A stretch of DNA of 64,000 nt, from positions 15,547,291 through 15,611,290 of the forward strand of contig NC_056553.1 in NCBI RefSeq assembly GCF_910596095.1, in the 5' to 3' direction. The stretch's first letter is position 1; each line of letters begins with the position of its first letter. Below, in pieces: positions 1,513-58,209 of the stretch. The notes below the pieces were generated by a model. The model was not told where the DNA came from. It saw nothing but the letters and a program-made list of their open reading frames with translations, and did not search any database. Position numbers and translations under genes: made by a program. The stretch is from Thunnus maccoyii (lineage: Eukaryota; Chordata; Actinopteri; Scombriformes; Scombridae).

Positions 1513-3975
1513 ATGAGGAGTGCTGCAGCTTTTCTGGCGTTGCTGCTCTGTCTGTACTGGACGAGGGCTCAGGGTGAGAGTGGAGGGGTGACAGAGAATG
1601 ATATCACTCAGACAGATGTTCAGTCTGAGATCCTGGGTGTTGAAGCAACCAGTGATCAGACTAACATCACCCCTGATATCTGGGCTGAGCTGAAGGAGCT
1701 GAGAGACATGGTGATCCAACACAGTCTGGAGCTGAGTAACAGCAAGAGCAAGATAGAGAAGCTGGAGCAAGAGAATACAGGTTCATTCACATAGTGCTAA
1801 ACAGATTCATGCAATTTTCACATATTTATTACTTTTAGGAATAATTTACTGCTTTTATTCCAGCCATACAGGCCAGACTGACAGCCAGTGAAAGCAAGAA
1901 TGCAGGTAGATATTTACATTTTATTAAATGATATTTAATTCATTCATGTTTGTGATGTTTTTCCTGCCAAGCTCAAGAGTTAAATGTAACCAAATCTTTA
2001 AGATGTTTACTGAGATTAATATCTAACATTCAAAATGAACCTTTTGGTAAAAAACTTTAAATGTATTCACAGTTTTGGAGGCCAGAATGAACGCCAGTGA
2101 AAATTTGGTCAAGGAGCTCCAGAGAGGTAAGCTTAAAAAAAATCAAAGTGTGAAAATGAAACTGAATATATTATGTTGGCAATGAGAAAATATTTAGTGA
2201 GATTAAGATAAGGGTAAGTTTCATTAATGATGTTTTGGTGGGAAAACTTTAAACATCACAGTACACAGGTAATCTACAAAAATCAATAAAAAGCAAAAAT
2301 AGCATCATATGATAGAAATAAAAACATATTTAGTGAGAAAATTATCATGATAAAAGGTTCATAATTAACCTTTTTGTGAAAAAAACGTTACAGTTTTGGA
2401 GGCCACAATAAATACCAGTAAAAATCTGGTTTTATACATGCAATTTTCACATATTACAAATGGTACAAATGTCATTTTACACTTGACTGCTGATTGACTG
2501 TAAATCTTTCATAATAGTAACTAGAAATGTGTTCACAGATTTGGAGGCCAGATTGAACACTGCTGAAAACGTGGTGGAGGAGCTCAAGAGGGAGAACACC
2601 AGTAAGCTGCAAAACACAAAGCTGCCAGTTTATTAGATATTAGATACACATACATGTATTTCAAGTTCCAGTTATGTAGTTTACCTCCTTTACAATAAAA
2701 ATGATGAATGTGTTCACAGTGTTGGAGGCCAGAATGAGCTCCAATGAGCTCCAGGTGGAGGAGCTCAAGAGAGAGAATGCAGGTGAGCTGCTTATATCAT
2801 TATTAAAAAGTCAAAATGTCATATTATGGTAGCAGTGAGAATGGCAACGGTAAATCGAGGGTCATCCTCTGTGCAGCAGGATGCAGAGTGACATGAATAC
2901 AGTTATTAAATGAGGCAGAAGTGACATTTTGCAGCTGTTACTGATGTGAGAGGAAAATATTCTCTCTATGTGTGTCTTCCACATTCACACAGAACGACCA
3001 AAGGTGGCGTTTTCTGTCGGCCTTACTGACGCAGGATATGTTGGACCCTTCAATACTGACATCACACTTCAGTTCAGTAAAATTTTCACCAACATCGGCC
3101 AGGCTTATAGCCCAACTACAGGTACATATACCTCTCTAACCTACTCACACTGATTTTATTTGAATTATTACACAATCTTATAGATTTATGATCCAATTTA
3201 TCATTTTTTTTGGAATTGCCTTTTTATGGATAACTTTTATTGTATCCCTAGTTGTCCAAGTGTGGAATATCTCTCTTGAAACTGTCTGTCTCGCCATTTT
3301 TTAAATGTTTTTTTCTTTGTTTGTATTTCTTGTCTTCTTAGTAGGCTAGTTCTGGGTTGGAAGCTCTTATAAAGCTCTTTCAGATAAAGTATGTTATACT
3401 GGGATATACATGATGCCATGAAGGGAAGGGACTTTCTCTTTTACATAGTTTGCACATGTATTATGTAGCTATTTTTATTCTATTTGGCAGTCTTTTTTTA
3501 TTTTAATGGGTGCTTCTGTGAAAGCTTTGATAGTTCTCACTTGTATTTGGTTTGGTTTGTGTTTTCACTGAATTGATTAGATTAGATTTCTAACACAGTC
3601 TAACATCACGGACTTGGCAACAAATTCCCAGAGTTAGACAAACACCTATAAAGCCTGACAAAATCAATTAAAAGACTGAATTCCTTCTTTGTTGCAGGTG
3701 TCTTTACAGCACCAGTCAGAGGAGCCTACTACTTCAGATTCAACGGGTTTGCTGCGTGGAATTCAATAGCTATTGACCTGTATCACAACGGCAACCAAGT
3801 GACTCTCTCTCTTGATAGAGTTGGTAACAATGATTATGTCAATGTGTCTAATGGATTTGTTCTTCAACTGGAAAAGGGAGATATGATCTATGTGGTTCTC
3901 CGCTCAGGCTTTGGTGTTTATGATGATTCCCTTGATCGTACCACTTTTAGTGGATTCCTACTTTTTGCTATGTGA
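1513..3975 (+). CDS. Secreted C1q-domain protein, C1q-like gene A (7 exons, 298 aa)
   Basis: Exons: 1513-1780, 1864-1905, 2073-2126, 2539-2601, 2720-2782, 2993-3121, 3698-3975. All junctions are phase 1 and the sum is 897 nt with one terminal stop. Residues 1-20 are a signal peptide ending in RAQ. Residues about 50-163 form a heptad-rich coiled coil built from repeats of the type LEARMNASEN..EELKREN. Residues 164-298 form a C1q head (PKVAFSVGL, then GVFTAPVRGAYYF, VLQLEKGD and the final strand TTFSGFLLF). There is no collagen repeat, so it resembles fish complement C1q-like/cerebellin-like proteins; such heads trimerise. Oddities: the third exon is 54 rather than 63 nt, the exon 4 donor has shifted base (acca then gtaagc), and a decayed stalk exon without a donor lies at 2394. 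A poly(A) signal ATTAAA is at 4029. The family is certain; ligand and role are unknown. Confidence 0.88.
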
Positions 3976-4494
3976 GGTCAGCTGTAAAAACAACTACAGT
4001 TGATTGCATGAAGTTTCAACATTACGCTATTAAAAATATGAAATCCAAATAATCTGTTTGTGTGTGTGCATTTTTGTCTGGTTACATGAGCAAGACACAA
4101 GATGAAAAAGTTCTCTACTGACAATATCAAAGAACCTCTCCACAGTTTAAGATAAGTTACATTTTAGTGTTAATTAATATGAAGAGGATGTCATATGTAA
4201 TTAAAATTATTTCGTAAAGCATTTTGAAGAAAAGAAGAAAAATGCTTTACACAACTCCTGTAGTAGCACGACAATATTCTGTGACTAACTGTTTTATGAA
4301 GAGAGAACACAGCAAGAATATCCTGGTATCAAAGTACTGCAAATGTCATTTAGATAAGACAGCAGCATCCAAATGACGACCCTTATGGTCATGACTGATC
4401 ATGATCAATTATTAAAGAACCACAAGTCAGCTTCAATAAATTAAAAGCAGTGTGACCAACTCTGCTGGTCTGAAGGAACAAATGACAGCCTTAC
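3976..4494. other. C1q 3' flank (to about 4315), then unique sequence up to the polycystin exon
   Basis: Up to about 4315 the sequence matches the 3' flanks of the C1q genes at 39044 and 58209 (same order of ATTAAA, the gtgtgtgtgttttt stretch, the atgaggaggatgtcatatg block and the gaagagagaacacagca block). Homology stops there. The last 180 bases before 4495 are unique, and on the - strand no PLAT-domain exon can be read in them. Confidence 0.6.
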
Positions 4495-8690: not shown

Positions 8691-8726
<36 letters not shown>

Positions 8727-14700: not shown

Positions 14701-17289
14701 TGAGACACAAATATTTTACCCTTCTGGCTCTTATGAATGGAAAAATGGCTTTAGTTAAAGGAGAAACACAACATTTGAACACTTGAAAAATGCTATTAGA
14801 GTCACATTCACAGAGGTTAATCTATAAGTCTGGAAGATTAGGAGCACTTTTGACATCATTTTGAAGTCATAAAAAATAGTCACATAATTAATTTGAACAA
14901 TTTTTTGGTAATTAATAATAGAATAAATCAGCTACATTATAGTCAAAACAGCACCTACACTGTATTTCAAATATTTGTTTCTGTGTGTTGTACCTGCCGG
15001 GAGTGTAGTATCTTTTGGTGATGGTCTTTGAGGTGGTTCTGGCGGATTTTGAGTCTCCGAAGTACCAGAGAAACTCCACAGGGACTGGGACATCAGCTAC
15101 AACCAGGAAGGTTATATCTGTGTTTGTGGGATAAGCTTGTTGTGCTGCATGAATCCTCACAGCTAGAGGACAAAACAGATTTCATGGTCGACATGTTATG
15201 TATTTGTCACAGAAATGTAAACACTCCATGACAGAGAGATGAAGAAATACTGCTGTTTTAAACAAAATGATGTTGTCTCAAGAAAGTGGTAAATAAGAGA
15301 AAAATGTGGAAAAAAGACAGATTAAAGGATGCATTATGAGCATTCATTTACTTAATTATGTTGAAGCTTACATTTTCTTTGACAGTGATAAACTTCCAAA
15401 AGTTAGCCTATCAACACCTTTGCAGTGTCACATTCAGATTAAAGGAGATACTTTGATTGAACTAAAGCTGTATGTAACAAAGCAGCTGTTTTGGGTGGTG
15501 CTTGTACATTAAAAAATTCATTAGGGAATTATTTAAGAACTTTGTCACAATGAAAGATAAACATAAAAAACATAAAATCTGAGTTTATATTATATTTTTC
15601 TTAACATTTACAAGAAATAAACGTGTATGTTTTGTACTGCTCAGTGAGTGTCAGTTACTTCCTTACCATTGTCAGTAAGGTTGTGAACAGGCCTTTGACT
15701 AGTGGGTGGTTGCCAGATTGGATTAACTTGTGGTGACGGCTTCCGTTTCCCCTCAACACGTACTGTCGCGCTCTTGTTCTGAGAAGAGACTCGATTCTCA
15801 GCTCGAAGCTCAACCACAACTGTCCCAGCATGGTCAAAAAACAAAACCACTGCTGCCTCCTCTTCTGCAGCGTAGTTGCTGTTTCTGTACAGTACTGTTG
15901 CATTCACCAGCAGAGACACAGTTACATTCGACCCTGCTGTGACGCTAAATAAAACTGAATGTTTTCGATTTGTTGTGATCACACTTGGAACCTTTAAGAC
16001 CAGCTCTTCAACTGGATCTTGAACCAGTATGTGAGTGTGGAAGGAGGCCCAGCTGACTGGGTTAAATGACTTAACTGTGACATTATAACTCCCTGCTATT
16101 GGAAGAGACACATTTATGTTCCAATTTTCAGTTGTTCTGTTAATCACAACAGCATCATCCAAACTAAAAGTCCAAACCACTTTCGACTTCACACAGCTGA
16201 CAACCTCCAGGCTGAATTCAGTCTGTGTCAGAACTACTGACATCCAACTCCCAGAAGGCCTCAGGGCTCGTATACGCTCATATACCATCAAGGCTGGAGG
16301 CAGGACAGTGAAGAGCAGCACTGATGAAGGATCAGCGGTGGAAAGGACAGACGCTGTGAGGTGATACTGTCCTGCAGCGGTGGGGAGGCGGCAGTGAAGG
16401 TGGAGGTGCAGACGGCAGCTGGAGCGGTTGGATGTGTGAAGGTGGTGTAGAGGGATGAGGCCGTTAGGGTGGGGATGTGAGTGGGTGCCACTGTGACAAC
16501 GGATGTTATTGTGGTGTTGACTGAGATTGTGATCATAGTTGATGTTTCCATGGCTACCGTTGCTACAGTTGTGATCATTACTGTTTTCCTGGTTGGTAAT
16601 TTTTCCTGTATGATTCTCAGCTTTATTAATGTTAGCGGTGTTGTTGCTGATGTTTTCATTGCAATTAGTTAAGTCACTTCTGTCATCATCATTTTGGTTG
16701 TTGTCGCTGTTCAGTGTGAGGTTGAGAAGAAGTAGGTGCTTCATGGTGGTGAGCAGCTGCACGTCTACAGAAATGCCCTCTCCTACACTCAGCTGTTCCC
16801 CAGACACACTCACTCTTAGGTCAGAGACAGCAAGACGCACAACCACCTGCAAATGCACACACCCACATCACACAAATGTGAGATTAAAGGATAAGTGTGG
16901 TCATATTTTACATTTTCTTTTTGTCAGACCCCATTAAAGATACCAAAATCAACAATGAGTTGATCATACTGAGAAGTGTAGCCAAAGTCTGATGTAGCTC
17001 ATTTCTCTGTGCCTTAGACCACGATTGCTGTCCAAAAACAATTAAAAACACATTAATGTGCCACACTGTTGCACTGTGTGACATGTTCCTTCATTAGGAT
17101 GAACATGGGCACTGTGGTTTGTTTGGACTGTCCCACATACACCGTCCTGCTGTGGTAAATACTTGCTAATACAACAAATGTATATTAATCCGCAGGTGAA
17201 AATAGCTCCTAACAAATACATTATTTGCTCCTGTTTGAGTCATTTTTGCAAAAAACTACAGTGCCCAGCTGTTTGAGGAAATGATACAG

Positions 17290-26342: not shown

Positions 26343-28731
26343 ATGAGGAGTGCTGCAGCTTTTCTGGCGTTGCTGCTCTGTCTGTACTGGACGAGGGCTC
26401 AGGGTGAGAGTGGAGGGGTGACAGAGAATGATATCACTCAGACAGATGTTCAGTCTGAGATCCTGGGTGTTAAAACAACCAGTGATCAGACTAACATCAC
26501 CCCTGATATCTGGGCTGAGCTGAAGGAGCTGAGAGACATGGTGATCCAACACAGTCTGGAGCTGAGTAACAGCAAGAGCAAGATAGAGAAGCTGGAGCAA
26601 GAGAATACAGGTTCATTCACATAGTGCTAAACAGATTCATGCAATGTTCACATATTCATTACTTTTAGGACTAATTTATTGCTTTTATTCCAGCCATACA
26701 GGCCAGACTGACAGCCAGTGAATGCATGAATGCAGGTAGATATTTACATTTTATTAAATGATATATAATTCATTCATGTTTGTGATGATTTTCCTGTCAA
26801 GCTCAAGAGTTAAATGTAACCAAATCTTTAAGGTGTTTACTGATATTAATATCTAAGATTCAAAATGAACCTTTTGGTAAAAGCTTTAAATGTATTCACA
26901 GTTTTGGAGGCCAGAATGAACGCCAGTGAAAATTTGGTCCAGGAGCTCCAGAGAGAGAACATAGGTAAGCTTAAAAAAATCAAAGTGTGAAAATGAAACT
27001 GAGTATATTATGTTGGCAATGAGAAAATATTTAGTGAGGTTAAGATAAGGATAAGTTTCATTAATAATGTTTTGGTGGGAACACTTTAAACATCACAGAG
27101 CACAGGTAAGCTACAAAAATCAATCAAAAGAAAAAATAGCATTGTGTGATAGAAATAAAAATGTATTTAGTGAGAAAATTATCATGATAAAAGGTTCATA
27201 ATTAACCTTTTTGTGAAAAATGTTACAGTTTTGGAGGCCAGAGTAAACACTGGTGAAAATGTGATCATGGAGCTGAAGAGAGACATCATGGGTAAGCTAC
27301 AGACATCATTAAAAAATAAAATTTGAATATAATGTTAGAAAACGTGTTTTTGCAAAATGTGATTTACAAAAGTAATTGGAAAGGAGTCAACATGATTTAA
27401 CAGAAATATAACATTTGGGGTTGTTAACTAATCTATTTAACCTATTAATTTTTCTCCTCTATTGCAGATCTTTTGGTCAGAGTAACAGCTACTGAAAATA
27501 AGAATACAGGTAGGCCTACATAGTAATCAAGACAAAATGTGAAAACTGCAGACCATAATCCTATTTCACAATAAAAGTGATAAATGTGTTCACAGTGTTG
27601 GAGGCTAGAATGAGCTCCAGTGAAAACGAGGTGGAGGAGCTCAAGAGAGAGAACATAGGTAAAGTAAATAAAAAAAAAAATCCTAAGTAAAAAAGTCATG
27701 TTATTAGAAAACATATTGTTGTTTTAAAGTCTATCACATGTGAAGTCCAAATCTGATGAAAGAGGAGTAAAAAGATCTATTTATCAGAAAAAAGTTTGAC
27801 ATATTAATAAAATTTTATGCTTGGACGTTAATTTTAATTCATTTCCTCCTCTAATGCAGATCTTCTAGCCAGAGTAACAGGAACAGAAAATAAATGCACA
27901 GGTAGGCCTACATAGTAATCAAGGAAAAATGTGAAAACTGCTAACCATAGTCCTACTTTACAATAACAGTTTAAAATGTGTTCACAGTGTTAGAGGCCAG
28001 AATGAGCTCCAATGAAAACGAGGTGGAGGAGCTCAAGAGAGAGAATGCAGGTAAGCTGCTTAAATCATTATTGAAAGTCAAGATGCTGCTATCAGCATCA
28101 AACTGACTGTAGTGTCACTATGTTTGTGTGGTTGAAAAGCAGTATGTCAGTGAGGAAAATATTTTACAAACAAAAGATGCAGTTACATTTCTCAGAGACT
28201 GCACATCAGTGATGTTTTCAATATGCACGTCTTTCACATTCACACAGACCGACCAAAGGTGGCGTTTTCAGTTGGTCTTACTTACACAGGACATGTTGGA
28301 CCCTTCGACACTGACATCACACTTAAGTTCAGTAAAGTCTTCACCAATATCGGCCAGGCCTACAACCCAACTACAGGTATTCAGCTCTTTTATATTCAGT
28401 TTTCAGTACTGATGTGGGGAGAGGTTCTGACCCCTCACTGATTTTCTCCTGTGATGCAGGTATCTTCACAGCCCCAGTCAGAGGAGCCTACTACTTCAGA
28501 TTCAGCTTGTGGGATGACCGTACTTCGGCTTTGATAGGTGCTTTTCTCTATCACAATAACAAGTCAATGATGTATAATTCAAACTACGGTAATAGTGTTG
28601 GATATATTACTGTGTCTAATGCTTTAATTCTTCAACTAGAAAAGGGGGATGTGATCTACATGCGTCTCCCATCACAGTTTGGTGTTTCAAATCGTACCAC
28701 CTTTGATGGTTTTCTGCTTTTCCCTCTTTGA
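26343..28731 (+). CDS. Secreted C1q-domain protein, C1q-like gene B (10 exons, 348 aa)
   Basis: Exons: 26343-26610, 26694-26735, 26902-26964, 27229-27291, 27468-27509, 27596-27658, 27860-27901, 27988-28050, 28248-28376, 28460-28731. The sum is 1047 nt, all phase 1, one stop. It has the longest stalk in the window, seven small exons of 42/63/63/42/63/42/63 nt giving about 126 residues of coiled coil after exon 1. The 42-nt DLLVRVTATEN type exons alternate with 63-nt LEARM type exons. The stalk carries two cysteines (SEC, NKC) that could cross-link chains. The head (216-348) keeps PKVAFSVGL, GIFTAPVRGAYYF, LQLEKGDVIYM and TTFDGFLLFPL. It belongs to a subtype (ending FPL) distinct from genes A, C, D and E (ending FAM). 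Its last intron is short, about 80 bases, against about 580 in the others. Confidence 0.88.
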
Positions 28732-34169: not shown

Positions 34170-36896
34170 ATGAGGAGTGCTGCAGCTTTTCTGGTGTTGC
34201 TGCTCTGTCTGTACTGGACGAGGGCTCAGGGTGAGAGTGGAGGGGTGACAGAGGGCAATGCAGAGACCTTTAGAGGGGCAGTTGCTCAAAGTTAAAAAGG
34301 GGCACATGGGACAAGATTTTAAAAAAACACATACACCAACATCATTTATAGCACAACCTGTTGAAGTATAGCAACTCATATTCAAGCAGAATGTAACATG
34401 GAATCTTACAACAAACTGCATCATACTATATCATTGTCCCCCACCTGATGAAACAAAGGTCCTGTCCTGTAAGGACCAAGGTTTTGTCATTGTAAGGGTT
34501 AATGAATGGCAGGATTAGCCGAAGGCTTCAAGTATTCTTGTCTGAAGGACTCAGTTTATAATGTTTGACTGAACAACATATAAAACAATTTGCTTTCAAA
34601 AACAAAAACCCCTGAATGGTGAAAAGGCTGCTTCTTTGAAGACATTTAGCATAAACATATTGTTTCTAAACAAAGAATATGCTTTTGATATGATGACAAT
34701 CTCTGATCCAGACATAACATATAGCTCTTCAAATCCCATAATTACAAAGAAATAAAAACAAACAAACAAACTACAAGACATACAACAACTGGGATAGAAA
34801 GGGGAGAATCTTTAAAGATTATAAAATACAGCTAAAAATAACAGAGAGGCAGAGTTCAAAAGTAGTGCAAGAGACAGTGAGACAAAACCAGCTGCTACAG
34901 TCTTATCTTAAAAGAAACTTAACGGCAAGTTCTTGGACTCCATTTGCTGTATTTCAAAACATGGTTGAAATACCTTATTGGATGTTTTAATTGTTTTTAA
35001 AATGGAGATGTCACTGAATAAAGGCTCAACTTTGTAGGATTCTTTAATATACATTTTTCCAACCAAAATGAGAAAAAAATGAATTGTGATTATTCACCAC
35101 TGGATGTTTTACTGATATATACAGTATTTTTGTGCTACTTCTACTTCTAGTCAGCACATCTTCAAGGTTTAAAACAATAAGAAACATCCACTGAGCTGCG
35201 ATGTGTCATTTTCAGTTTTTACCAAACATGCTTGTCAGGAATGTGAAAATAGTCTCCCAAGTATTTAAATATTTACACAGAGATTTCTTTTTTTTTTTGC
35301 TGGTGTCTCACCTATTTCAACCTGTTAACAGCTTGTGAAAACATCATGATAATAGAGTTGTTGTGTAGTGTTACTACCTGTATTAAAGGATCTGTTAGTC
35401 CTTTTATAGCAGGTTTCAATCTTGTGCTTTGACTTTTGTTTGTTAAGATGTCCTTTAGTTTACATTTGGATAACAGATTGTGCCTTTAAAAATATTTACC
35501 AGAACAGTAATGTATCTATATACAAGTGTAAATTTCTTACCAGTTTTCCTGCTTTGAATGTGTTCATGTCTCTCCATCACCTGACACCTGGGCTGCTTCT
35601 ATGTGTTTCTCTTTCCTCCTTAAACTGTTTCTTTCAATCTTGAATCAGTTGTGTCTTCTTTACTTTCTCCATGTTTTTCTTTCAACACTTTTACATCCTG
35701 TAAATCTTCCTCATTTCTGTCTCAGCTCTCCTGATTCTTTCACTCACTCTGGAAATGTAAAAAGCTTCCTTTTAAAAGTCTGACAGAGCATGAAGCAGAA
35801 CTTTAACTTGTATGGTGTTAATTACACTAATTGTGGACAAACAATACATCAGCAGTAAAGCTATCCAAACTATCAAGCTAACGTTACATTAACATTACTG
35901 TAAAGTAAATAACATTAATATTATTATATACTGCCCCCTGCACCTACCAGTCACTCAGACAGAGGTTCAGTCTGAGATCCTGGGTGTCAAAACAACCAGT
36001 GATCAGACTAACATCACCCCTGATATCTGGGCTGAGCTGAAGGAGCTGAGAGACATGATGATCCAACACAAGGTGGAGCTGAGGAACAGCAAGAGCAAGA
36101 TAGAGAAGCTGGAGCAAGAGAATACAGGTGAGTGTATTAATGTCAGTCACACAAGGCCTCACACATTCATGCAATGTTTGTATATTATTGAAATGACTGT
36201 TCTGAGTAGTTTATTGCTTTAGTTGCAGCTCATACAGCACAACTGTCTGTCATGTTGGTCCAGACTGACAGTCAGTGGTTTTATAGGCCCACATCTATTT
36301 ATATGGGATTAGATTCATCCATGTAACTTTTATATCAGCTTTATGGTGGATATACTGTATATTTCCATTTTCAGTTTTATAGTTTGACCAGAGAGTATCA
36401 GCCATCAGCCTTTTATGTATTTAGCAGAGACAAGTTCAATATAAGATTTTATATCTGGCTGTTGATCAGTTATTAATATGTTCATTAATTTTGCCTTCTA
36501 TTGCAGATACATACATACAACATACAAAAGCTACAAAAATCAATAACATGTAAAACCTTTTTTTTTACTGCATGCTAGCAATGAGAATATATTTATTTGA
36601 TATTAAGGTATGGTTCTTGATGAACCTTTGGGTGAAAACATATTTGAAGTTCCAGTTTGGTACCACTGAGATGTCACTGGTCTGGATCATTTACTATCAG
36701 CTCAATTAGATATTTGCAAACTTTGATTCTCAAAGTGACTGAAGAGAATTTAAAAGATATTTATCTGTTTAGTACAGACAAGTTCAATATGAAATTTTAC
36801 ATCTGGCTGTTGATCAATTATTAATCTGCTTATTAATTTTGCCTTCTATTGCAGATCCTCTGGTCAGAGTAACAGCGTGTGAAAATAAGAGCACAG
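34170..36896 (+). pseudogene. C1q-like pseudogene, exon 1 disrupted by a hAT-like element
   Basis: Start codon, signal peptide and first residues are intact at 34170-34253. The frame then enters the inserted element and stops within about 15 codons (TEGNAETFRGAVAQS). Exon 1 resumes at 35951 (TCACTCAG onward) and reaches a good donor at 36127. Of the stalk, one 42-nt exon is recognisable at 36855-36896 but its donor is lost (cacag followed by tgcgg). No C1q head follows before gene C. Confidence 0.8.
34254..35950. mobile_element. hAT-like non-autonomous element in exon 1
   Basis: About 1.7 kb, collinear with the copy at 52590-54293. The left tip has suffered an 18-base deletion that removed the left octamer and the first bases. 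The right octamer TCACTCAG is kept at 35951-35958. No transposase is readable. Confidence 0.7.
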
Positions 36897-37228: not shown

Positions 37229-39044
37229 ATGAGGCGTGCTGCAGCTTTTCTGGCGTTGCTGCTCTGTCTGTACTGGATGAGGGCTCAGGGTGAGAGTGGA
37301 GGGGTGACAGAGAATGATATCACTCAGACAGAGGTTCAGTCTGAGATCCTGGGTGTTAAAACAACCAGTCATCAGACTAACATCACCCCTGATATCTGGG
37401 CTGAGCTGAAGGAGCTGAGAGACATGGTGATCCAACAAAGTGTGGAGCTGAGGAAGATGGAGCAAGAGAATACAGGTTCATTCACATAGTGCTAAACAGA
37501 TTCATGTAGTTTTCACATATTATACATTTTAATGTCATTTTACACTTGACTGTTGATCGACTGTAAACCTTTCATAATAGTAACTAGAAATGTGTTCACA
37601 GATTTGGAGGCCAGATTGAACACTACTGAAAATGTGGTGGAGGAGCTCAAGAGGGAGAACACCGGTAAGCTGCAAAACACACAGCTGCCAGTTTATTAGA
37701 TACACATACGTGTGTTTCAAGTTCCAGTTATGTATTTTACCTCCTTTACAATAAAAATGATGAATGTGTTCACAGTTTTGGAGGCCAGAATGAACACCTG
37801 TGAAAATGAGGTGGAGGAGCTCAAGAGAGAGAATGCAGGTGAGCTGCTTATATCATTATTAAAAAGTCAAAATGTCATATTATGGTAGCAGTGAGAATGG
37901 CAATGGTAAATGGAGGGTCATCCTCTGTGCAGCAGGATGCAGAGTGACATGAATACAGTTATTAAATGAGGCAGAAGTGACATTTTGCAGCTGTTACTGA
38001 TGTGAGAGGAAAATATTCTCTCTATGTGTGTCTTCCACATTCACACAGAACGACCAAAGGTGGCGTTTTCTGTCGGCCTTACTGACGCAGGAGCAGTTGG
38101 ACCCTTCAATACTGACATCACACTTCAGTTCAGTAAAATTTTCACCAACATCGGCCAGGCTTATAGCCCAACTACAGGTACATATACCTCTCTAACCTAC
38201 TCACACTGATTTTATTTGAATTATTACACAATCTTATAGATTTATGATCCAATTAATCATTTTTTCTGGAATTACCTTTTCATGCAAAACTTTTATTGAA
38301 TCCTTAGTTGTCCAAGTGTGGAATATCTCCCTTGAAATTGTCTGTCTCTCCATTTTTTTTTTTTTTTCCTTTTTCGTATTTCTTGTCTTCTTAGTAGGCT
38401 AGTTCTGGGTTGGAAGCTCTTATAAAGCTCTTTCAGATAAAGTATGTTATACTGGGATATACATGATGCCATTTTGGTGAAGAGACTTTCTCTTTTACAT
38501 AGTTTGCACATGTTTTAAAGTATTATATAACTATTTTTATTTCATTTGGCAGTCTTTCTTTATTCTAATGGGTTCTTCTGTGAAAGCTTTGATAGTTGTC
38601 ACTTGTATTTGGTTTGGTTTGTGTTTTTACTGAATTGACTAATTCCCAGAGTTAGACACACACCTATAAAGCCTGATAAAAACAATTAAAAACATTTTCC
38701 TGTTGAATTGACATAAGATTTTAATGGTGAGAAAAAGACTGAATTCCTCCTTTGTTGTAGGTGTCTTTACAGCTCCAGTCAATGGAACCTACTACTTCAG
38801 ATTCACCGGGTTTGAAGATCGGTCTACAAATTGGCTAGGTATTAAATTGTATCACAATGACAAGAGAATTACTGGTAGTTATGATGGAAATTATGACGAT
38901 GGCACTGTCATGGTGTCTAATGGATTTGTTCTTCAACTGGAAAAGGGAGATGAGATCTACATGGTTCTCACCCCAGACTACGGTGTTTCTGATGATCACA
39001 ATAATCGTACCACTTTTAGTGGATTCCTACTTTTTGCTATGTGA
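37229..39044 (+). CDS. Secreted C1q-domain protein, C1q-like gene C (5 exons, 261 aa)
   Basis: Exons: 37229-37475, 37602-37664, 37776-37838, 38049-38177, 38761-39044. The sum is 786 nt, all phase 1, one stop. It has the shortest stalk: exon 1 lacks seven codons (the SNSKSKI stretch) and only two 63-nt modules follow, giving about 42 residues before the head. The head (125-261) reads PKVAFSVGLTDAGAVGPFN, GVFTAPVNGTYYFRF, IKLYHNDKRITGS, VLQLEKGDEIYMVL and NNRTTFSGFLLFAM. A new sequon (NGT) appears where the paralogs have RGA, and one Cys sits in the stalk (NTCEN). The last intron is about 580 bases, with a TAG acceptor. ATTAAA lies at 39098. Complete and probably functional. Confidence 0.88.
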
Positions 39045-39668
39045 GGTCTGCTGTAAAAACACCCACAGTTGATTGCATGAAGTCTCAATGTTACAATATT
39101 AAAAATATGAAATCCAAATAATCTGTTTGTGTGTGTGTTTTTGTCTGTTTACATGAACAAGACACAGGATGAAAAAGTTATCTACTGACAATATCAAACA
39201 ACCTCTCCACAGTTTAAAAAACAAGTGTTTTTTTTTTTTTTTAGGAAAAAATAAAAATAATACTAAACCAAACCCATCCTGCAAAACTTGCCTGAAATGC
39301 ATCCAAACCCAAACAGATCACGCCCTCCACTTATTTATTTTTATTTCTTTTAAATTTTTTCTTTCTTTTCTTCACATGCTGTCCCCTGTTACCTATCTGT
39401 GTCCTTTTATGTTTTGTAAACCAATATCATCTCCTGTTGCCTTTGTATTAATTAGTATGTCCATATTGTCTATATATGTATGCACTTATCAGTGAATAAA
39501 AAAACATTCTAGTGTTAATGAATATGAGGAGGATGTCATATGTAAAAAAAATAATTTCACAAAGTATTTTGAAGAAAAGTACAACTCCTGCAGTAGCGAC
39601 AATATTCTATGACTCCACACACAACTGTTTTATGAAGAGAGAACACAGCAACCTGTAAAATGTTACAG

Positions 39669-39731
39669 TTTTGGAGACCAGAATAAACACCAGTGAAAAT
39701 GTGGTTGTGGAGCTCAAGAGAGACATCATGG
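39669..39731 (+). pseudogene. Orphan 63-nt C1q stalk exon
   Basis: An exon like exon 4 of gene B (..ENVVVELKRDIMG) with acceptor and donor intact, but no first exon before it, and its intron is filled by a Penelope-like element. A duplicate lies at 58862-58924. Confidence 0.7.
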
Positions 39732-39882
39732 GTAAGCTACAAAAACATCATTAAAAAATAAAAATTGCATATAATGTTAAAAAAATTTGCAAAATGTGAT
39801 GTGAAAAAGTAATTGGAAAGGAGTCAAAAAGATTTAACAGAAATGTAACATCTGGGGTTGTTAATCAACTAATCTATTTAAC

Positions 39883-47437: not shown

Positions 47438-47441
47438 CAGA

Positions 47442-47985: not shown

Positions 47986-50572
47986 ATGAGGAGTGCTGCA
48001 GCTTTTCTGGTGTTGCTGCTCTGTCTGTACTGGACGAGGGCTCAGGGTGAGAGTGGAGGGGTGACAGAGAATGATATCACTCAGACAGATGTTCAGTCTG
48101 AGATCCTGGGTGTTAAAGCAACCAGTGATCAGACTAACATCACCCCTGATATCTGGGCTGAGCTGAAGGAGCTGAGAGACATGGTGATCCAACACAGTGT
48201 GGAACTGAGGAAGATGGAGAAGCTGGAGCAAGAGAATACAGGTTCAACATAGTGCTAAAACAGATTCATGCAATGTTCACATATTCATTACTTTTAGGAC
48301 TAATTTACTGCTTTTATTCCAGTCATACAGGCCAGACTGACAGCCAGTGAAATCAAGAATGCAGGTAGATATTTACATTTTATTAAATGATATATAATTA
48401 ATTCATGTTTGTGATGTTTTTCCTGTCAAGCTCAAGAGTTAAATGTAACCGAATCTTTTACTGTTTACTGAGATTAATATCTAAGATTCAAAATGAACCT
48501 TTTGGTAAAAAAACTTTAATTGTATTCACAGTATTGGAGGCCAGAATGAACGACAGTGAAAATTTGGTTTTATTCATGCAATTTTCACATATTACAAATC
48601 TGAATGTCATTTTACACTTGACTGTTGATCGACTGTAAATCTTTCATAATAGTAACTAGAAATGTGTTCACAGATTTGGAGGCCAGATTGAACACTGCTG
48701 AAAACGTGGTGGAGGAGCTCAAGAGGGAGAACACTGGTAAGCTGCAAAATACACAGCTGCCAGTTCATTAGGTACACATACAGGTATTTTAAGTTCAAGT
48801 GATGTAGTTTACCTCCTTTACAATAAAAATGATAAATGTGTTCACAGTGTTGGAGGCCAGAATGAACAACTGTGAAAAAGTGGTGGAGGAGCTCAAGAGG
48901 GAGAACTCCGGTAAAAAAAAAAGAAAAGAAAATATGAGTAAAAATGGCATTTTATGTTAGAGAACATGTTGTTGATTCAAACTATCAGATGTGAAGTCCA
49001 AAAGTGATGAAAAAGGAGTAACAAAATTTATTTGGAGGAAACAAGTTTAACATACTAATAACATTTTACATGTGGATGTTAATTTTAATTTATATCCCCT
49101 CTAACGCAGATTTTTTTTAAATTCAGATTTGAAGTCCAGATTGAACACTGCTGAAAACATGGTGGAGGAGCTCAAGAGGGAGAACACCGGTAAGCTGCAA
49201 AACACACAGCTGCCAGTTTATTTGATACACATACATGTATTTTAAGTTCCAGTTATGTAGTTTACCTCCTTTACAATAAAAATATTGAATGGGTTTACAG
49301 TCTTCGAGGCCAGAATCAGCTCCAATGAAAATGAAGTGGAGGAGCTCAAGAGAGAGAATGCAGGTGAGCTGCTTATATCATTATTAAAAAGTCAAAATGT
49401 CATATTATGGTAGCAGTGAGAATGGCAACGGTAAATCGAGGGTCATCCTCTGTGCAGCAGGATGCAGAGTGACATGAATACAGTTATTAAATGAGGCAGA
49501 AGTGACATTTTGCAGCTGTTACTGATGTGAGAGGAAAATATTCTCTCTATGTGTGTCTTCCACATTCACACAGAACGACCAAAGGTGGCGTTTTCTGTCG
49601 GCCTTACTGACGCAGGACGTGTTGGACCCTTCAATACTGACATCACACTTCAGTTCAGTAAAATTTTCACCAACATCGGCCAGGCTTATAGCCCAACTAC
49701 AGGTACATATACCTCTCTCACCTACTCACACTGGTTTTATTTGAATTATTACATAATCTTATAGATTTATGATCCAACTTATCATTTTTTTTGGAATTGC
49801 CTTTTTATGGATAACTTTTATTGAATCCTTAGTAGTCCAAGAGAGGAATATCTCTCTTGAAATTGTCTGTCTCTCCATTTTTCACATTCTTTTCTTTGTT
49901 TGCATTTCTTGTCTTCTTAGTAGGCTAGTTCTGGGTTGGAAGCTCTTATAAAGCTCTTTCAGATAAAGTATGTTATACTGGGATATACATGATGCCATTT
50001 TGGTGAAGGGACTTTCTCTTTTACATAGTTTGCACATGTTTTAAAGTATTATGTAGATATTTTTATTTCATTTGGCAGTCTTTTTCTATTCTAATGGGTT
50101 CTTCTGTGAAAGCTTTGATAGTTCTCACTTATATTTGGTTCGGTTTGTGTTTTCACTGAATTGACTCCTTGATTAGATTTCTAACACAGTCTAACATAAC
50201 AGATTTGGCAACAAATTCCCAGAGTCAGACACACACCCATAGAGCCTGACAAAATCAATTAAAAGACTGAATTCCTCCTTTGTTGCAGGTGTCTTTACAG
50301 CCCCAGTCAGAGGAGCCTACTACTTCAGATTCAAAGGGTTTGAAGTAAAGTCTTCAAATTGGATAGGTATTAAACTGTATCACAATGACAAGAAGATTAC
50401 TGGGTCTTACGATGCAAATGATAACATTGGTAATGTCATGGTGTCTAGTGGATTTGTTCTTCAACTGGAAAAGGGAGATATGATCTACCTGGTTCTCCCC
50501 TCAACCTACGTTGTTTGGGATAATGGCAATAATCATAGCACTTTTAGTGGATTCCTACTTTTTGCTATGTGA
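47986..50572 (+). CDS. Secreted C1q-domain protein, C1q-like gene D (8 exons, 320 aa)
   Basis: Exons: 47986-48241, 48323-48364, 48674-48736, 48848-48910, 49127-49189, 49301-49363, 49574-49702, 50289-50572. The sum is 963 nt, phase 1 throughout, one stop. The stalk is one 42-nt and four 63-nt modules (98 residues), with one Cys (NNCEKV). The head (184-320) reads PKVAFSVGLTDAGRVGPFN, GVFTAPVRGAYYFRFKGFE, IKLYHNDKKITGS, VLQLEKGDMIYLVL and FSGFLLFAM. A decayed stalk exon at 48533 has its 3' half fused to intron, leaving no in-frame donor, and must be skipped. The 49127 exon follows two tandem acceptors (ctaacgcag and attcag); only the second gives a 63-nt in-phase exon. ATTAAA lies at 50626. Confidence 0.87.
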
Positions 50573-50880
50573 GGTCTGCTGTAAAAACACCCACAATTGA
50601 CTGCATGAAGTTTCAACATTACACTATTAAAAATATGAAATCCAAATAATCCGTTTGTGTGTGTGTTTTTGTCTGGTTACATGAACAAGACACAGGATGA
50701 AAAAATTCTCTACTGACAATATCAAACAACCTCTCCACAGTTTAAAAAACAAGTAATACTCTGGTGTTTTCTTTTTAAGAAAAATAATAAGTATAATCAT
50801 GATAATAAACCAAACCCATCCTTCAAAACTTGCCTGAAATGCATCCAAACCCAAACAGATCACACCCTCCGCTTATTTAG

Positions 50881-51598
50881 GAGGAGCTCAAGAGAGAGAA
50901 TGCAGGTGAGCTGCTTAAATCATTATTGAAAGTCAAGATGCTGCTATCAGCATCAAACTGACTGCAGTGTCACTATATTGTGTGGTTGAAAAGCAGTATG
51001 TCAGTGAGGAAAATATTTTACAAACAAAAGATGAAGTTACATTTCTCAGAGACTGCACATCAGTGGTGTTTTCAATATGCACGTCTTTCACATTCACACA
51101 GACCGACAAAGGGTGGCGTTTTCAGTTGGTCTTACTGATGCAGGATCAGTTGGACTGTTTGATACTGAAACCACACTTAAGTTCAGTAAAGTCTTCACCA
51201 ATATCGGCCAGGCCTACGACCCAACTACAGGTATTCAGCTCTTTTATATCCAGTTTTCAGTACTGATGTGGGGAGAAGTTCTGACCCCTCACTGATTTTC
51301 TCCTCTGATGCAGGTATCTTCACAGCCCCAGTCAGAGGAGCCTACTACTTCAGTTTCACCTTGTGGGACGACCGTACTTCAGCTTCATTTGGTGTTTTAT
51401 CTTTATCACAATGACAATAGAGTGATGTATAGTTCAGACTACAATGACAGCATCAGCTATGTCACTGTGTCTAATGATCTAATTCTTCAACTAGAAAAGG
51501 GGGATGTTATCTACATGATTCTCTGGTCAGACTACATTATTGCAGATGAGAGCAGCAATCATACCACCTTTGATGGTTTTCTGCTTTTCCCTCTGTGA
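50881..51598 (+). pseudogene. C1q-like pseudogene (head exons, frameshifted)
   Basis: The 3' 25 bases of a stalk exon (50881-50905) are fused to the gene D 3' flank. The head exons follow at 51102-51230 and 51314-51598 with good splice sites. One extra T in the last exon (ttttatctttatcac near 51395, compared with gene B) shifts the frame and gives a stop just after. The identical lesion is present at 62113-62609. Confidence 0.8.
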
Positions 51599-52286
51599 GT
51601 ACGGTTGTAAAGTACCCACAGTTAATTTTAAACAGTTTCAACATTACTCTGTTAAAAAAATATAAGCATATATATAATCCAAATAACTCTTTGTCTGTGT
51701 TTTTGTCTGGTTAGATGAACAAGACTCTACAAGTCATAGAACATTCTCACCTAAAATATAAAAAAACATTTGCACATTTTATAAAGATGTTAAATTTAAC
51801 TGTTAAACCCATGTTAGTGAATGACCACAACTCCTACAGTGACACTCTGTGGATCCGTCTATGCTCCTCAGAGCTTAAAATAGTACAGTAGAGTCTTTAC
51901 ATATTTGGATAGTACATGTTTTTTGTTGTGTTGGCTTTGCTCTGCAGCACAATTTGCAATAAATACTTAAACAACACATGTTAATACACATCAGATGAAC
52001 CCTGACCCAGTTGTAGCCCTTTACAACCTGAGTCTGGGAAACAAACATACACACTTTTGAAAGATCAAAGACTGAAATTGCTCTTATCAACTGTTTAGTT
52101 CTCATGATCCTTCAACATTAACTGTAGTTTTTAAAGGATTCACTACTAATGATTTTAAAGAACATCATTCTAACTAGTTGTTTACTTTAAATTCAGTTGA
52201 GTGTTCAAGGATCTTTGGTGTTATTTTTGAATTTGTTATCAGACACCTGTTTCATTCTCATACAGCAATTCAGTGACCTTTATGTG
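51599..52286. other. C1q 3' flank and upstream region of the next copy
   Basis: Same order of blocks as 28732-29110 followed by the conserved pre-promoter block. No other gene is visible. Confidence 0.55.
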
Positions 52287-52294: not shown

Positions 52295-52304
52295 GACAGG
52301 AACT

Positions 52305-52479: not shown

Positions 52480-52490
52480 GATATTTCATA

Positions 52491-54561
52491 ATGAGGAGTG
52501 CTGCAGCTTTTCTGGTGTTGCTGCTCTGTCTGTACTGGACAAGGGCTCAGGGTGAGAGTGGAGGGGTGACAGAGAATGATGTCACTCAGCAGGGCCGTGC
52601 AGAGACCTTTAGAGGGGCAGTTGCTCAAAGTTAAAAAGGGGCACATGGAACAAGATTTTAAAAAACCACATACACCAACATAATTTATAGCACAACCTGT
52701 TGAAGTATAGCAACTCATATTCAAGCAGAATGTAACATGGAATCTTACAACAAACTGCATCATACTATATCATTGTCCCCCACCTGATGAAACAAAGGTC
52801 CTGTCCTGTAAGGACCAAGGTTTTGTCATTGTAAGGGTTAATGAATGGCAGGATTAGCCAAAGGCTTCAAGTATTTTTGTCTGAAGGACTCAGTTTCTAA
52901 TGTTTGACTGAACGACATATAAAACAATTTGCTTTCAAAAACAAAAACCCCTGAATGGTGAAAAGGCTGCTTCTTTAAAGACATTTAGCATAAACATATT
53001 GTTTCTAAACAAAGAATATGCTTTTGATATGATGACAATCTCTGATCCAGACATAACATAAAGCTCTTCAAGTCCCATAATTACAAAGAAATTAAAAAAC
53101 CCCAAAAACTACAAGACATACAACAACTGGGATGGAAAGGGGAGAATCTTTAAAGATTATAAAATACAGCTAAAAATAACAGAGAGGCAGAGTTCAAAAG
53201 TAGTGCAAGAGACAGTGAGACAAAACCAGCTGCTACAGTCTTATCTTAAAACAAACTAAACCGCAAAAATTTTATAAATGCTTGGACTCCATTTGCTGTA
53301 TTTCAGAACATGGTTGAAATACCTTATTGGATGTTTTAATTGTTTTTAAAATAGAGATGTCACTGAATAAAGACTCAACTTTGAAGGATTCTTTAATATA
53401 CATTTTTCCAACCAAAATGAGAACAAAATGAATTGTGATCATTCACCACTGGATGTTTTTCTGATATATACAGTACTTTTCTGCTACTTCTACTTCTAGT
53501 CAGCACATCTTCAAGGTTTAAAACAATAAGAAACATCCACTGAGCTGCGATGTGTCATTTTCAGTTTTTCCAAACATGCTTGTCATGTCAATGTGAAAAT
53601 AGTCTCCCAAGTATTTAAATATTTACACAGAGATTTTTTGCTGGTGTCTCACCTATTTCAACCATTTAACAGCTTGTGAAAACATCATGATAATAGATTG
53701 TTGTTGTGTAGTGTTACTACCTGTATTAAAGGATCTGTTAGTCCTTTTATAGAAGGTTTCAAATTTGTGCTTTGACTTTTGTTTGTTATGATGTCCTTTA
53801 CTTTACATTTGGATAACAGATTATGCCTTTAAAAATATTTACCAGAACAGTAATGTATCTATATACAGCTGTAAGTTTCTTACCAGTTTTCCTGCTTTGA
53901 ATGTGTTCATGTCTCTCCATCACCTGACACCTGGGCTGCTTCTATGTGTTTCTCTTTCCTCCTTAAACTGTTCCTTTCTGTCTTGAATCAGTTGTGTCTT
54001 CTTTACTTTCTCCTTGTTTTTCTTTCAACACTTTTACATCCTGCAATTCTTCCTCACTTCTGTCTCCTCTCTCCTGATTCTTTCACTCACTCTGGAAATG
54101 TAAAAAGCTTCCTTTTAAAAGTCTGACAGAGCATGAAGCAGAACTTTAACTTGTATGGTGTTAATTACACTAATTGTGGACAAACAATACATCAGCAGTA
54201 AAGCTATCCAAACTATCAAGCTAACGTTACATTAACATTACTGTAAAGTAAATAACATTAATATTATTATATACTGCCCCCTGCACCTACCAGTCACTCA
54301 GACGGAGGTTCAGTCTGAGATCCTGGGTGTCCCATGTAACTTTTATATCAGCTTTATGGTGGATATACTGTATATTTCCATTTTTTGTTTTTTAATTTGA
54401 CCAGAGACTATCAGCCATCAGCCATTTATGTATTTAGCAGAGACAAGTTCAACATGAGATTTTAAATCTGGCTGTTGATCAATTATTAATCTGCTTATTA
54501 ATTTTGCCTTCTATTGCAGATCTTCTAGTTAGAGTAACAGCGTGTGAAAATAAGAGCACAG
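52491..54561 (+). pseudogene. C1q-like pseudogene with hAT-like insertion in exon 1
   Basis: The first 33 codons (signal peptide intact) run 52491-52589, then the element starts and the frame stops about 14 codons later. Exon 1 resumes at 54294 for only about 38 bases before a deletion joins it to a later intron (ccatgtaacttttatatcag). A 42-nt stalk exon remains at 54520-54561. No head exons follow before gene E. Confidence 0.8.
52590..54293. mobile_element. hAT-like element with 8-bp target duplication (best copy)
   Basis: 1704 bp from CAGGGCCGTGCAGAGACC to ctgcacctaccag. It is flanked by perfect octamers TCACTCAG at 52582-52589 and 54294-54301, which are single in intact exon 1 sequences. 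The ends share an imperfect inverted GTGCAG core. Octamer duplication and a CAGGG start indicate hAT. No transposase is seen. Confidence 0.78.
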
Positions 54562-55535: not shown

Positions 55536-55543
55536 TATATAAA
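55536..55543 (+). promoter_or_regulatory. TATA box of C1q-like gene E
   Basis: TATATAAA, 70 bases before the ATG. The promoter block is identical in order to gene D. Confidence 0.75.
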
Positions 55544-55605
55544 GACGGGAACTGAGCGAGACGTGTCAGACTGCATCTTGCTGTCTAAAGAGGTGATATT
55601 TCACA

Positions 55606-58209
55606 ATGAGGAGTGCTGCAGCTTTTCTGGTGTTGCTGCTCTGTCTGTACTGGACGAAGGCTCAGGGTGAGAGTGGAGGGGGGACAGAGAATGATATCAC
55701 TCAGACAGATGTTCAGTCTGAGATCCTGGGTGTTAAAGCAACCAGTGATCAGACTAACATCACCCCTGATATCTGGGCTGAGCTGGAGGAGCTGAGATAC
55801 GTGGTGATCCAACATAGTCTGGAGCTGAGTAACAGCAAGAGCAAGATAGAGAAGCTGGAGCAAGAGAATACAGGTTCATTCACATAGTGCTAAACAGATT
55901 CATGCAATATTCACATATTCATTACTTTTAGGACTAATTTACTGCTTTTATTCCAGCCATACAGGCCAGACTGACAGCCAGTGAATGTACGAATGCAGGT
56001 AGATATTTACATTTTATTAAATGGTATATAATTCATTCATGTTTGTGATGATTTTCCTGTCAAGCTCAAGAGTGAAATGTAACCGAATCTTTTACTGTTT
56101 ACTGAGATTAATATCTAAGATTTAAAATGAACCTTTTGGTAAAAAACTTTAAATGTATTCACAGTTTTGGAGGCCAGAATGAACGACAGTGAAAATTTGG
56201 GTTTATTCATGCAGTTTTCACATATTATACATTTTAATGTCATTTTACACTTGACTGCTGATCAACTGTAAATCTTTCATTAGTAGTAACTAGAAATGTG
56301 TTCACAGTTTTGGAGGCCAGATTGAACACTGCTGAAAACATGGTGGAGGAGCTCAAGAGGGAGAACACTGGTAAGCTGCAAAATACACAGCTGCCAGTTT
56401 ATTAGATACACATACATGTATTTTAAGTTCCAGTTATGTAGTTTACCTCCTTTACAATAAAAATGATAAATGTGTTCACAGTGTTGGAGGCCAGAATGAA
56501 CAACTGTGAAAAAGTGGTGGAGGAGCTCAAGAGGGAGAACTCCGGTAAAAAAAAAAAGAAAAGAAAATATGAGTAAAAATGGCATTTTATGTTAGAAAAC
56601 ATGTTGTTGATTCAAACTATCAGATGTGAAGTCCAAAAGTGATGAAAAAGGAGTAACAAGATTTATTTGGAGGAAACAAGTTACAAATACTAATAAAATT
56701 TTACATGTGGATGTTAATTTTAATTTATATCCCCTCTAACGCAGATTTTTTTTACATTCAGATTTGAAGACCCGATTGAACACTGCTGAAAACGTGGTGG
56801 AGGAGCTCAAGAGGGAGAACACCGGTAAGCTGCAAAACACACAGCTGCCAGTTTATTAGATACACATACATGTATTTTAAGTTCCAGTTATGTAGTTTAC
56901 CTCCTTTACAATAAAAATGATGAATGTGTTCACAGTGTTGGAGGCCAGAATGACCTCCAATGAGCTCCAGGTGGAGGAGCTCAAGAGAGAGAATGCAGGT
57001 GAGCTGCTTATATCATTATTAAAAAGTCAAAATGTCATATTATGGTAGCAGTGAGAATGGCAACGGTAAATCGAGGGTCATCCTCTGTGCAGCAGGATGC
57101 AGAGTGACATGAATACAGTTATTAAATGAGGCAGAAGTGACATTTTGCAGCTGTTACTGATGTGAGAGGAAAATATTCACTCTATGTGTGTCTTCCACAT
57201 TCACACAGAACGACCAAAGGTGGCGTTTTCTGTCGGCCTTACTGACGCAGGATATGTTGGACCCTTCAATACTGACATCACACTTAAGTTCAGTAAAATT
57301 TTCACCAACATCGGCCAGGCTTATAGCCCAACTACAGGTACATATACCTCTCTCACCTACTCACACTGATTTTATTTGAATTATTACACAATCTTATAGA
57401 TTTATGATCCAACTTATCATTCTTTTTGGAATTGCCTTTTTATGGATAACTTTTATTGAATCCTTAGTAGTCCAAGAGGGGAATATCTCTCATGAAATTG
57501 TCTATCTTGCCTTTTTTTTTTTTTTTTTAACATTTTTTCCTCTTTTGTATTTCTTGTCTTCGTAGTAGGCTAGTTCTGGGTTGGAAGCTCTTATAAAGCT
57601 CTTTCAGATAAAGTATGTTATACTGGGATATACATGATGCCATTTTGGTGAAGGGACTTTCTCTTTTACATAGTTTGCACATGTATTATGTAGATATTTT
57701 TATTTTATTTGGCAGTCTTTTTCTATTCTAATGGGTTCTTCTATGAAAGCTTTGATAGTTCTCACTTATATTTGGTTCGGTTTGTGTTTTCACTGAATTG
57801 ACTCCTTGATTAGATTTCTAACACAGTCTAACATAACGGATTTGGCAACAAATTCCCAGAGTTAGACACACACCCATAGAGCCTGACAAAATCAATTAAA
57901 AGACTGAATTCCTCCTTTGTTGCAGGTGTCTTTACAGCCCCAGTCAGAGGAGCCTACTACTTCAGATTCAAAGGGTTTGAAATAAAGTCTTCAAAATGGA
58001 TAGCTATTAAACTGTATCACAATGACAAGATGATTACTGCGTCTTACGATGCAAATGATAACATTGGTAATGTCATGATATCTAGTGGATTTGTTCTTCA
58101 ACTGGAAAAGGGAGATATGATCTACCTGGTTCTCCCCTCAACCTACGTTGTTTGGGATAATGACGATAATCATTGCACTTTTAGTGGATTCCTACTTTTT
58201 GCTATGTGA
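55606..58209 (+). CDS. Secreted C1q-domain protein, C1q-like gene E (8 exons, 324 aa)
   Basis: Exons: 55606-55873, 55957-55998, 56308-56370, 56482-56544, 56762-56824, 56936-56998, 57209-57337, 57926-58209. The sum is 975 nt, phase 1, one stop. It is the closest relative of gene D in stalk layout (one 42-nt and four 63-nt modules) and head sequence (FKGFEIKSSKW, IKLYHNDKMITAS, TYVVWDND). It differs in RYVVIQH of exon 1, an added Cys in exon 2 (SECTNA) and another in the head (NHCTF). The same decayed stalk exon as in gene D lies at 56167 without a usable donor. ATTAAA lies at 58263. Complete and probably functional; ligand unknown. Confidence 0.88.

Follow-up and report, generated by a model that had tools for sequence, protein, structure and literature searches.

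Repeat-built stalks are common. The 54-bp exons of fibrillar collagens are symmetric and encode integer numbers of structural repeats, and their gain or loss leaves the rod intact; in DC-SIGN and L-SIGN, the number of neck repeats alters the length of the neck under the recognition head; and the 21-residue repeats of CD23 (FcepsilonRII) are exon encoded, with, to our knowledge, no family-wide variation in repeat number known. In the array of C1q-like genes analyzed here, exon and structural repeat coincide with the unit in which the DNA turns over. The array lies in a stretch of 64,000 nucleotides from Thunnus maccoyii (assembly GCF_910596095.1, contig NC_056553.1, positions 15,547,291 to 15,611,290), called the window below, which holds five complete genes, G1 to G5. 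We consider it likely that they encode secreted, collagen-less C1q-like proteins whose stalk length changes by whole-heptad exon units. Each protein would have a C1q head on an alpha-helical coiled-coil stalk, preceded by a signal peptide, and the stalk would begin in exon 1 and continue through symmetric phase-1 exons of three or two heptads, hereafter called modules.

The known systems differ from this layout in several respects. Fibrillar collagen is a Gly-X-Y triple helix and not a heptad coiled coil or a C1q array, while the 23-residue repeats of DC-SIGN and L-SIGN lie inside one exon and belong to membrane lectins. C1ql3 and cerebellin-1, whose heads are in the PDB, share the C1q domain by sequence, and we know of no modular stalk in these synaptic proteins. 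CD23, unlike the proteins considered here, is a membrane protein with a C-type lectin-like head. Like the stalk proposed for them, its stalk under the recognition head is alpha-helical, built of heptad repeats and trimerizing (PMC6791321). In the available part of a study of Crassostrea virginica, 262 of 476 C1q domain-containing (C1qDC) genes are C1q-like type II, with a coiled coil and a C1q domain, and the array resembles such bivalve proteins in its predicted secretion, in the coiled coil that replaces collagen, in tandem expansion and in positive selection at some sites of an otherwise mostly conserved C1q domain (PMC6835236). Unlike the genes of the window, the example paralogues in that part of the study have two exons, whose sizes are nearly identical, and it describes neither modular stalk exons nor variable stalk length (PMC6835236). 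Judged from sequence, the window proteins appear to be a variant of these coiled-coil (type II) C1q-like proteins; no description of modular heptad exons for fish C1q-like genes was found among the matches listed from the open-licence literature searched, which is weak evidence of novelty.

RESULTS

Exon anatomy of the five window genes

The five genes were rebuilt exon by exon, with junctions and reading frame checked, and all lie on the plus strand: G1 at 1513-3975, G2 at 26343-28731, G3 at 37229-39044, G4 at 47986-50572 and G5 at 55606-58209. Every junction in the five exon models is GT-AG and phase 1, the 129-nt head exon A is likewise symmetric, and none of the five translations contains an inner stop. 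Between exon 1 and the head lie 4, 7, 2, 5 and 5 modules in G1 to G5, respectively, encoding 74, 126, 42, 98 and 98 residues. A first-pass annotation of positions 1513-58209 had proposed these module counts, with symmetric phase-1 stalk exons of 63 or 42 nt and one exception of 54 nt, and this anatomy was fully recovered. The 23 stalk exons comprise 16 of 63 nt, 6 of 42 nt and 1 of 54 nt; since these length classes were copied by duplication, the heptad-multiple length of 22 of the 23 exons does not represent 22 independent events. The features are as follows, with the evidence for each in brackets where it was recorded.

1513..1780, +, G1 exon 1: signal peptide (by eye) and first stalk helix (exon model, heptad register)
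1864..1905, +, G1 module 1, 42 nt (exon model)
2073..2126, +, G1 module 2, 54 nt: the one off-length exon, lacking 3 residues and shifting the register (exon model, register)
2394..2429, end approximate, +, G1 fossil module, truncated and fused to intron-1-like sequence
2539..2601, +, G1 module 3, 63 nt (exon model)
2720..2782, +, G1 module 4, 63 nt (exon model)
2993..3121, +, G1 head exon A, 129 nt (exon model, Pfam)
3698..3975, +, G1 head exon B, carrying the hypervariable blocks (exon model, alignment)
26343..26610, +, G2 exon 1 (exon model)
26694..26735, +, G2 module 1, 42 nt (exon model)
26902..26964, +, G2 module 2, 63 nt (exon model)
27229..27291, +, G2 module 3, 63 nt (exon model)
27468..27509, +, G2 module 4, 42 nt (exon model)
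27596..27658, +, G2 module 5, 63 nt (exon model)
27860..27901, +, G2 module 6, 42 nt (exon model)
27988..28050, +, G2 module 7, 63 nt (exon model)
28248..28376, +, G2 head exon A (exon model, Pfam)
28460..28731, +, G2 head exon B (exon model)
37229..37475, +, G3 exon 1, 21 nt (one heptad) shorter than that of G1 (exon model)
37602..37664, +, G3 module 1, 63 nt (exon model)
37776..37838, +, G3 module 2, 63 nt (exon model)
38049..38177, +, G3 head exon A (exon model, Pfam)
38761..39044, +, G3 head exon B (exon model)
47986..48241, +, G4 exon 1, 12 nt shorter than that of G1, with a register shift (exon model, register)
48323..48364, +, G4 module 1, 42 nt (exon model)
48532..48567, end approximate, +, G4 fossil module, truncated
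48674..48736, +, G4 module 2, 63 nt (exon model)
48848..48910, +, G4 module 3, 63 nt (exon model)
49127..49189, +, G4 module 4, 63 nt; the unit of modules 2-3 recurs as modules 4-5 at an interval of 453 bp (exon model)
49301..49363, +, G4 module 5, 63 nt (exon model)
49574..49702, +, G4 head exon A (exon model, Pfam)
50289..50572, +, G4 head exon B (exon model)
55606..55873, +, G5 exon 1 (exon model)
55957..55998, +, G5 module 1, 42 nt (exon model)
56165..56200, end approximate, +, G5 fossil module, truncated
56308..56370, +, G5 module 2, 63 nt (exon model)
56482..56544, +, G5 module 3, 63 nt (exon model)
56762..56824, +, G5 module 4, 63 nt (exon model)
56936..56998, +, G5 module 5, 63 nt (exon model)
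57209..57337, +, G5 head exon A (exon model, Pfam)
57926..58209, +, G5 head exon B (exon model)

Two module-like exons, at 39661-39738 and 58854-58931, lie downstream of G3 and G5, apart from the gene models.

All five window proteins match the Pfam C1q family (PF00386) at 77.4 to 89.8 bits, against a cut-off of 23.7. Weak cross-matches to coiled-coil families were also obtained, and that of G5 to ATG16, which exceeds its cut-off (39.3 versus 33.7), probably reflects coiled-coil similarity. With G4 as the query, the closest solved structures are the C1q heads of cerebellin-1, adiponectin, C1q and C1q-like 2/3, and weak matches link the stalk to coiled-coil regions in tetherin and in reovirus sigma-1 (E, 8e-5 to 7e-4). 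No C-type lectin family, the mark of a CD23-like head, was among the Pfam matches of the five proteins.

Family in the genome

A DNA search of the genome (782 Mb in 54 contigs), which yields lower bounds, placed related exons on contigs C21, C12, C4, C22, C2 and C9. Eighteen stretches were modelled with a scan that scored the first ten module residues and left exon length free, so that modules too diverged would be missed. The outcome was 25 models that combine exon 1, modules and the two head exons; there are 9 on C21, 8 and 1 on C12, 3 on C4, 2 on C22 and 1 each on C2 and C9. Twenty-three of them are open end to end and form the set of usable genes; C12a_8791, which has a frameshift in exon 1, and C12a_31419, whose exon-1 end is not a usable splice site, were left out. 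All 147 module exons of the 25 models (110 of 63 nt, 35 of 42 nt and 2 of 54 nt) span a multiple of three nucleotides and are flanked by phase-1 junctions on both sides. Both 54-nt exons encode the same peptide and therefore probably have a single origin. The usable genes carry 2 to 10 modules (42 to 189 residues), and the modules of neighboring genes are up to 100% identical. Donor strength varies among modules, with many donors scoring well, and a TATA-like box lies 68 to 72 bp upstream of the ATG in 20 of the 25 models. Alignment of the 23 exon-1 peptides revealed a similar hydrophobic N terminus. No run of four or more G-X-Y triplets, the mark of collagen-like (C1q A/B/C, type I) proteins, occurs in the 23 proteins; instead, as in type II C1q-like proteins, heptad occupancy in register marks a coiled-coil region before the C1q domain in all of them.

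Heptad register of the stalk

Register was scored as the share of L, I, V, M, F, Y or W at a and d positions in the best of seven registers, compared with 2000 shuffles. For the exon-1 helix plus modules of the window genes, this share ranged from 56% (18/32, G1) to 67% (14/21, G3), and no shuffle reached it in any of the five. With modules alone, the best register was matched by 23 of 2000 shuffles in G1, by 1 in G3 and by none in G2, G4 and G5, while the exon-1 helix alone, which is too short, did not rise above shuffles in the window genes (105 to 671 of 2000). The module register also runs through the end of exon 1, and 31 to 38 residues should therefore probably be added to the modules alone, with which the first-pass annotation had equated the stalk, although its module residue counts stand. 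AlphaFold of exon 1 alone (five sequences) placed helices, both at low confidence, at residues 54-87 (mean predicted local distance difference test score, 55.8) and 4-19. G2, G3 and G5 keep an unbroken register between exon 1 and the head; in the otherwise regular repeats of G1 and G4 the register shifts once, at the 54-nt exon that drops three residues and through an exon 1 that is four residues shorter than that of G1, respectively.

Across the 23 usable genes, 631 of 999 a/d positions are hydrophobic, compared with 334 of 2479 other positions. The core of the 21-residue module, with residue 2 (L or I) at d, reads L(d), hydrophobic (a), small (d), V(a), L(d), N(a). Among the 110 modules of 63 nt, L occupies residue 2 (d) in 109 and residue 16 (d) in 110, V occupies residue 13 (a) in 106, and N occupies residue 20 (a) in 92; the 14-residue modules resemble the same unit without its inner V-L heptad. 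Cys stands at a d position in 4 modules. The pattern R-h-x-x-x-E (h, hydrophobic) is present in 135 of the 147 modules and only partly fits the trimerization motif, the second core residue here being small or polar. A separate observation is that the small or polar residue 9 and the usual Asn at residue 20 (a, 92/110) interrupt the core every 21 residues.

Gain and loss of modules

That the stalk exons are interchangeable heptad units, gained or lost in frame, as the first-pass annotation had proposed, is supported by comparisons between paralogues. Within one cluster, C12a_17256 (10 modules) and C12a_26896 (9 modules) share 99.3% identity across 2343 bp, and a single 174-bp gap, equal in length to an exon with an intron, sets them apart; between C12a_12326 and C12a_33775 there is likewise a 174-bp gap, accompanied by smaller ones of 51 and 22 bp. 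Module-to-module spacing is exactly 174 bp in 31 of 122 intervals, and in G4 and G5 a two-module unit recurs after 453-454 bp. These are the patterns that unequal recombination between neighboring units, the route inferred here, would give. Decay is seen as well: truncated fossil modules occur in 12 of the 25 models, and four more module exons, not counted among the 147, have a damaged 3' end (two without a donor and two of 41 nt). The genes that hold these four stay open if the damaged exon is skipped.

Divergence of the head

The first-pass annotation had described the heads as similar, a description contradicted by exon B, the most diverged part, whose rapid change that annotation did not note and whose amino-acid identity to G1 among the window genes is 53, 62, 64 and 64%. 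Between G1 and G3, exon B is 78% identical, compared with 93% for the preceding intron and 92% for the 3' flank, and exon B is less alike than the preceding intron in five of the six pairs among G1, G3, G4 and G5, the exception being G4-G5. Likewise, nonsynonymous change exceeds intron change in five of six pairs (p, 6e-4 to 2e-10), with no excess in G4-G5 (p, 0.43); nonsynonymous against synonymous change was not significant in any single window pair (p, 0.07 to 0.42). Aligned over the 23 genes, exon B alternates between a near-invariant framework and three variable blocks (alignment columns 15-28, 33-50 and 70-83).

In codon models of the 23 genes, the ratio of nonsynonymous to synonymous change (omega) was 1.76 for the three blocks (p, 2e-4 against 1), a value to be taken as description because the block limits were picked after variability was seen, and 0.83 for the framework (p, 0.43). 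The whole of exon B, which was not preselected, gave 1.55 (p, 3e-4), exon A gave 1.51 (p, 0.07) and exon 1 gave 1.05 (p, 0.81); replacing the tree by one of exon B hardly altered omega for the blocks, the framework or exon B as a whole. These models assume one tree, although gene conversion is likely and can distort such tests. It is the excess over intron divergence in five of six pairs, together with the 23-gene codon models, that argues for selection on the head. Modules, by contrast with the blocks, are conserved, with an omega of 0.59 (p, 0.004 against 1; 72 unique sequences on their own tree). Positive selection on modules was considered for the last module of G4 and G5, which differs more than its intron, and was rejected, since its synonymous divergence (dS) of 0.32 is high as well, suggesting local gene conversion.

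Blocks 1 and 3 align with residues W188 (block 1) and N240, N242 and Y244 (block 3) of C1ql3, numbered by counting back from Y244. These four residues are reported to make contact with BAI3; the triple change of N240, N242 and Y244 abolished BAI3 binding, whereas Y244A alone did not abolish it (PMC12048575).

C1q loci outside the family

The genome contains at least 145 C1q matches, of which eight further loci (L021 to L028) were taken as a small sample. Symmetric stalk exons of 63, 63 and 84 nt occur at L023 (C4:12.91 Mb); those of its neighbor L024 read as 72 (or 63 via an inner acceptor), 72 and 84 nt, and L025 has one stalk exon of 51 nt. In these few loci the exon lengths indicate that the heptad-multiple rule is not general and is weaker outside the family. 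At L021 and L022, no convincing stalk exon was found within the 4 kb scanned upstream of the heads; both belong to a second large group of C1q exons at C22:17.5-18.6 Mb. L027 (C21:15.98 Mb) has a similar exon 1, the next recognized exon is the C1q head, and the scan found no module exon between them; it may represent the state before module amplification.

DISCUSSION

Exon anatomy, heptad register, the one-unit difference between paralogues, conservation of the modules and rapid change of three head segments are read directly from the sequence. The mechanism that we propose to join them starts from the modules, which can replace one another without loss of frame and mostly without loss of heptad register, so that unequal recombination between adjacent exon-plus-intron units, often of 174 bp, would add or delete whole heptads. 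Decay of a splice site could also remove a module while the gene stays intact. Module number would then largely drift, the coiled coil itself would be kept by selection, and the head loops would diversify; by analogy with the C1q family, the head is probably a trimer, and the proteins would be secreted and act in immune recognition.

Several points weigh against the claim that these genes encode a coiled coil lengthened by whole heptads: (i) splicing was deduced from GT-AG sites, frame and homology, and for 27 of the 35 modules of 42 nt the weak donor GTAGAT was assigned by homology, two of these having a better-scoring GT at 30 nt, as was one 63-nt module; (ii) the coiled coil was judged from heptad a/d occupancy; (iii) residue 9, a d position, is S, G, N, T, A or C in 109 of the 110 modules of 63 nt, which would weaken the core once per module; (iv) 7 of the 23 usable genes show one register shift, 5 in exon 1 (the 256-nt form) and 2 at the 54-nt exon, so that the first-pass expectation of gain and loss without heptad shift applies to the 16 genes, 3 of the 5 in the window among them, that keep a single register from the exon-1 helix to the head; and (v) lengths descend by duplication, and the heptad rule therefore rests on few independent changes, about half of them non-heptad. 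The distinct length changes in the helical part are of -7 (42-nt class) and -3 (54 nt) residues in modules and of -4 and -7 residues in exon 1; a further 1-residue gap lies in exon 1 before the helix, and the head has gaps of 1, 2 and 4 residues. A reading of the exon-1 series of 0, -4 and -7 residues as stepwise register repair was dropped, as the -4 form occurs in 5 of 23 genes with no clear polarity.

The first-pass annotation had gone further and treated the locus as a ruler, in which stalk length is selected and sets the distance from the base of the oligomer to its heads, so that paralogues reach different targets or spacings. Module number ranges from 2 to 10 with register kept in 16 of the 23 genes, and similar heads do sit on unlike stalks, as in C21_47020 (2 modules) and C21_93833 (5 modules), whose exons B are 87% identical. 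Head distance and the difference in module number are, however, uncorrelated over all pairs of the 23 genes (Mantel r, 0.065, a value reached in 1149 of 5000 permutations), and since module number is unrelated to head similarity, free drift fits the present data as well as modular reach does. No test that we made revealed a preference for any length, and the fossil modules, together with the four damaged ones in genes that are open, hint that the loss of modules is tolerated; selection on length thus strikes us as doubtful. Alternative splicing could instead yield several stalk lengths from one gene, since all 147 module exons are symmetric and their donors differ in strength, but many donors score well and nothing in the sequence examined marks regulated modules, and we regard such length isoforms as unlikely. 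Stalk length and polar core layers could also serve to keep paralogues from mixing, giving gene-specific homotrimers. Module numbers do differ among genes and there are a few gene-specific core residues, including the Cys at d in 4 modules; the near-invariant L, V and N of the core would, however, favor mixing, as would modules that are up to 100% identical between neighbors, which makes such a code rather improbable.

It is very improbable that the array is an artefact, with misassembled tandem units and with pseudogenes behind the gene models. Assembly of tandem units is difficult when they are highly similar, broken copies do occur in the window, and two of the 25 models have a frameshift or an unusable exon-1 end; yet 23 are open, the architecture recurs on six contigs with diverged heads, and omega lies above 1 in head loops but below 1 in modules, which would be unexpected for dead genes. 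Whole-heptad exchange in a secreted, coiled-coil C1q-like family is thus the explanation that we retain. We offer only tentatively its extension to a two-part germline innate repertoire, with antibody-like loops on a constant C1q framework for specificity and a shuffled number of heptad exons for reach; if true, heads and stalk lengths would be freely combined among at least 23 open genes of one fish. Because 25 paralogous models in one genome allow their products to be compared, it becomes testable whether selection tunes the length of a rod under a recognition head or that length drifts, and whether heads of the C1q type can act as a diversified, loop-based recognition repertoire. The exon symmetry further predicts that in-frame stalk isoforms are possible from any of these genes.

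Broken copies and other features of the window

Copies of exon 1 in the window at 34170-34253 with 35951-36128, at 52491-52589 with 54294-54330 and at 63128-63226 are interrupted by an insert of ~1.7 kb. The left edge reads VTENDVTQ or VTENDFTQ in four of the five interrupted exon-1 copies on C21, and at the right edges of the window copies the direct repeat (G)TCACTCAG is found again, the copy at 34170 being without it on the left; two copies on C4 retain the first part of exon 1, with the remainder not nearby. The inserts have the look of a single old transposon insertion that gene duplication has spread. Two partial copies, at 50880-51600 and 61726-62609, each contain a whole or partial module together with exons A and B, and since the frame of exon B changes at the same point in both, they look like pseudogene fragments duplicated after damage. 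On the minus strand, an open reading frame between G1 and G2 (15641-16867) matches the PKD domain (PF00801; 25.9 bits, cut-off 23.5), and a fragment of a DDE_3 transposase lies at 23986-24324 (35.2 bits, cut-off 28.6).

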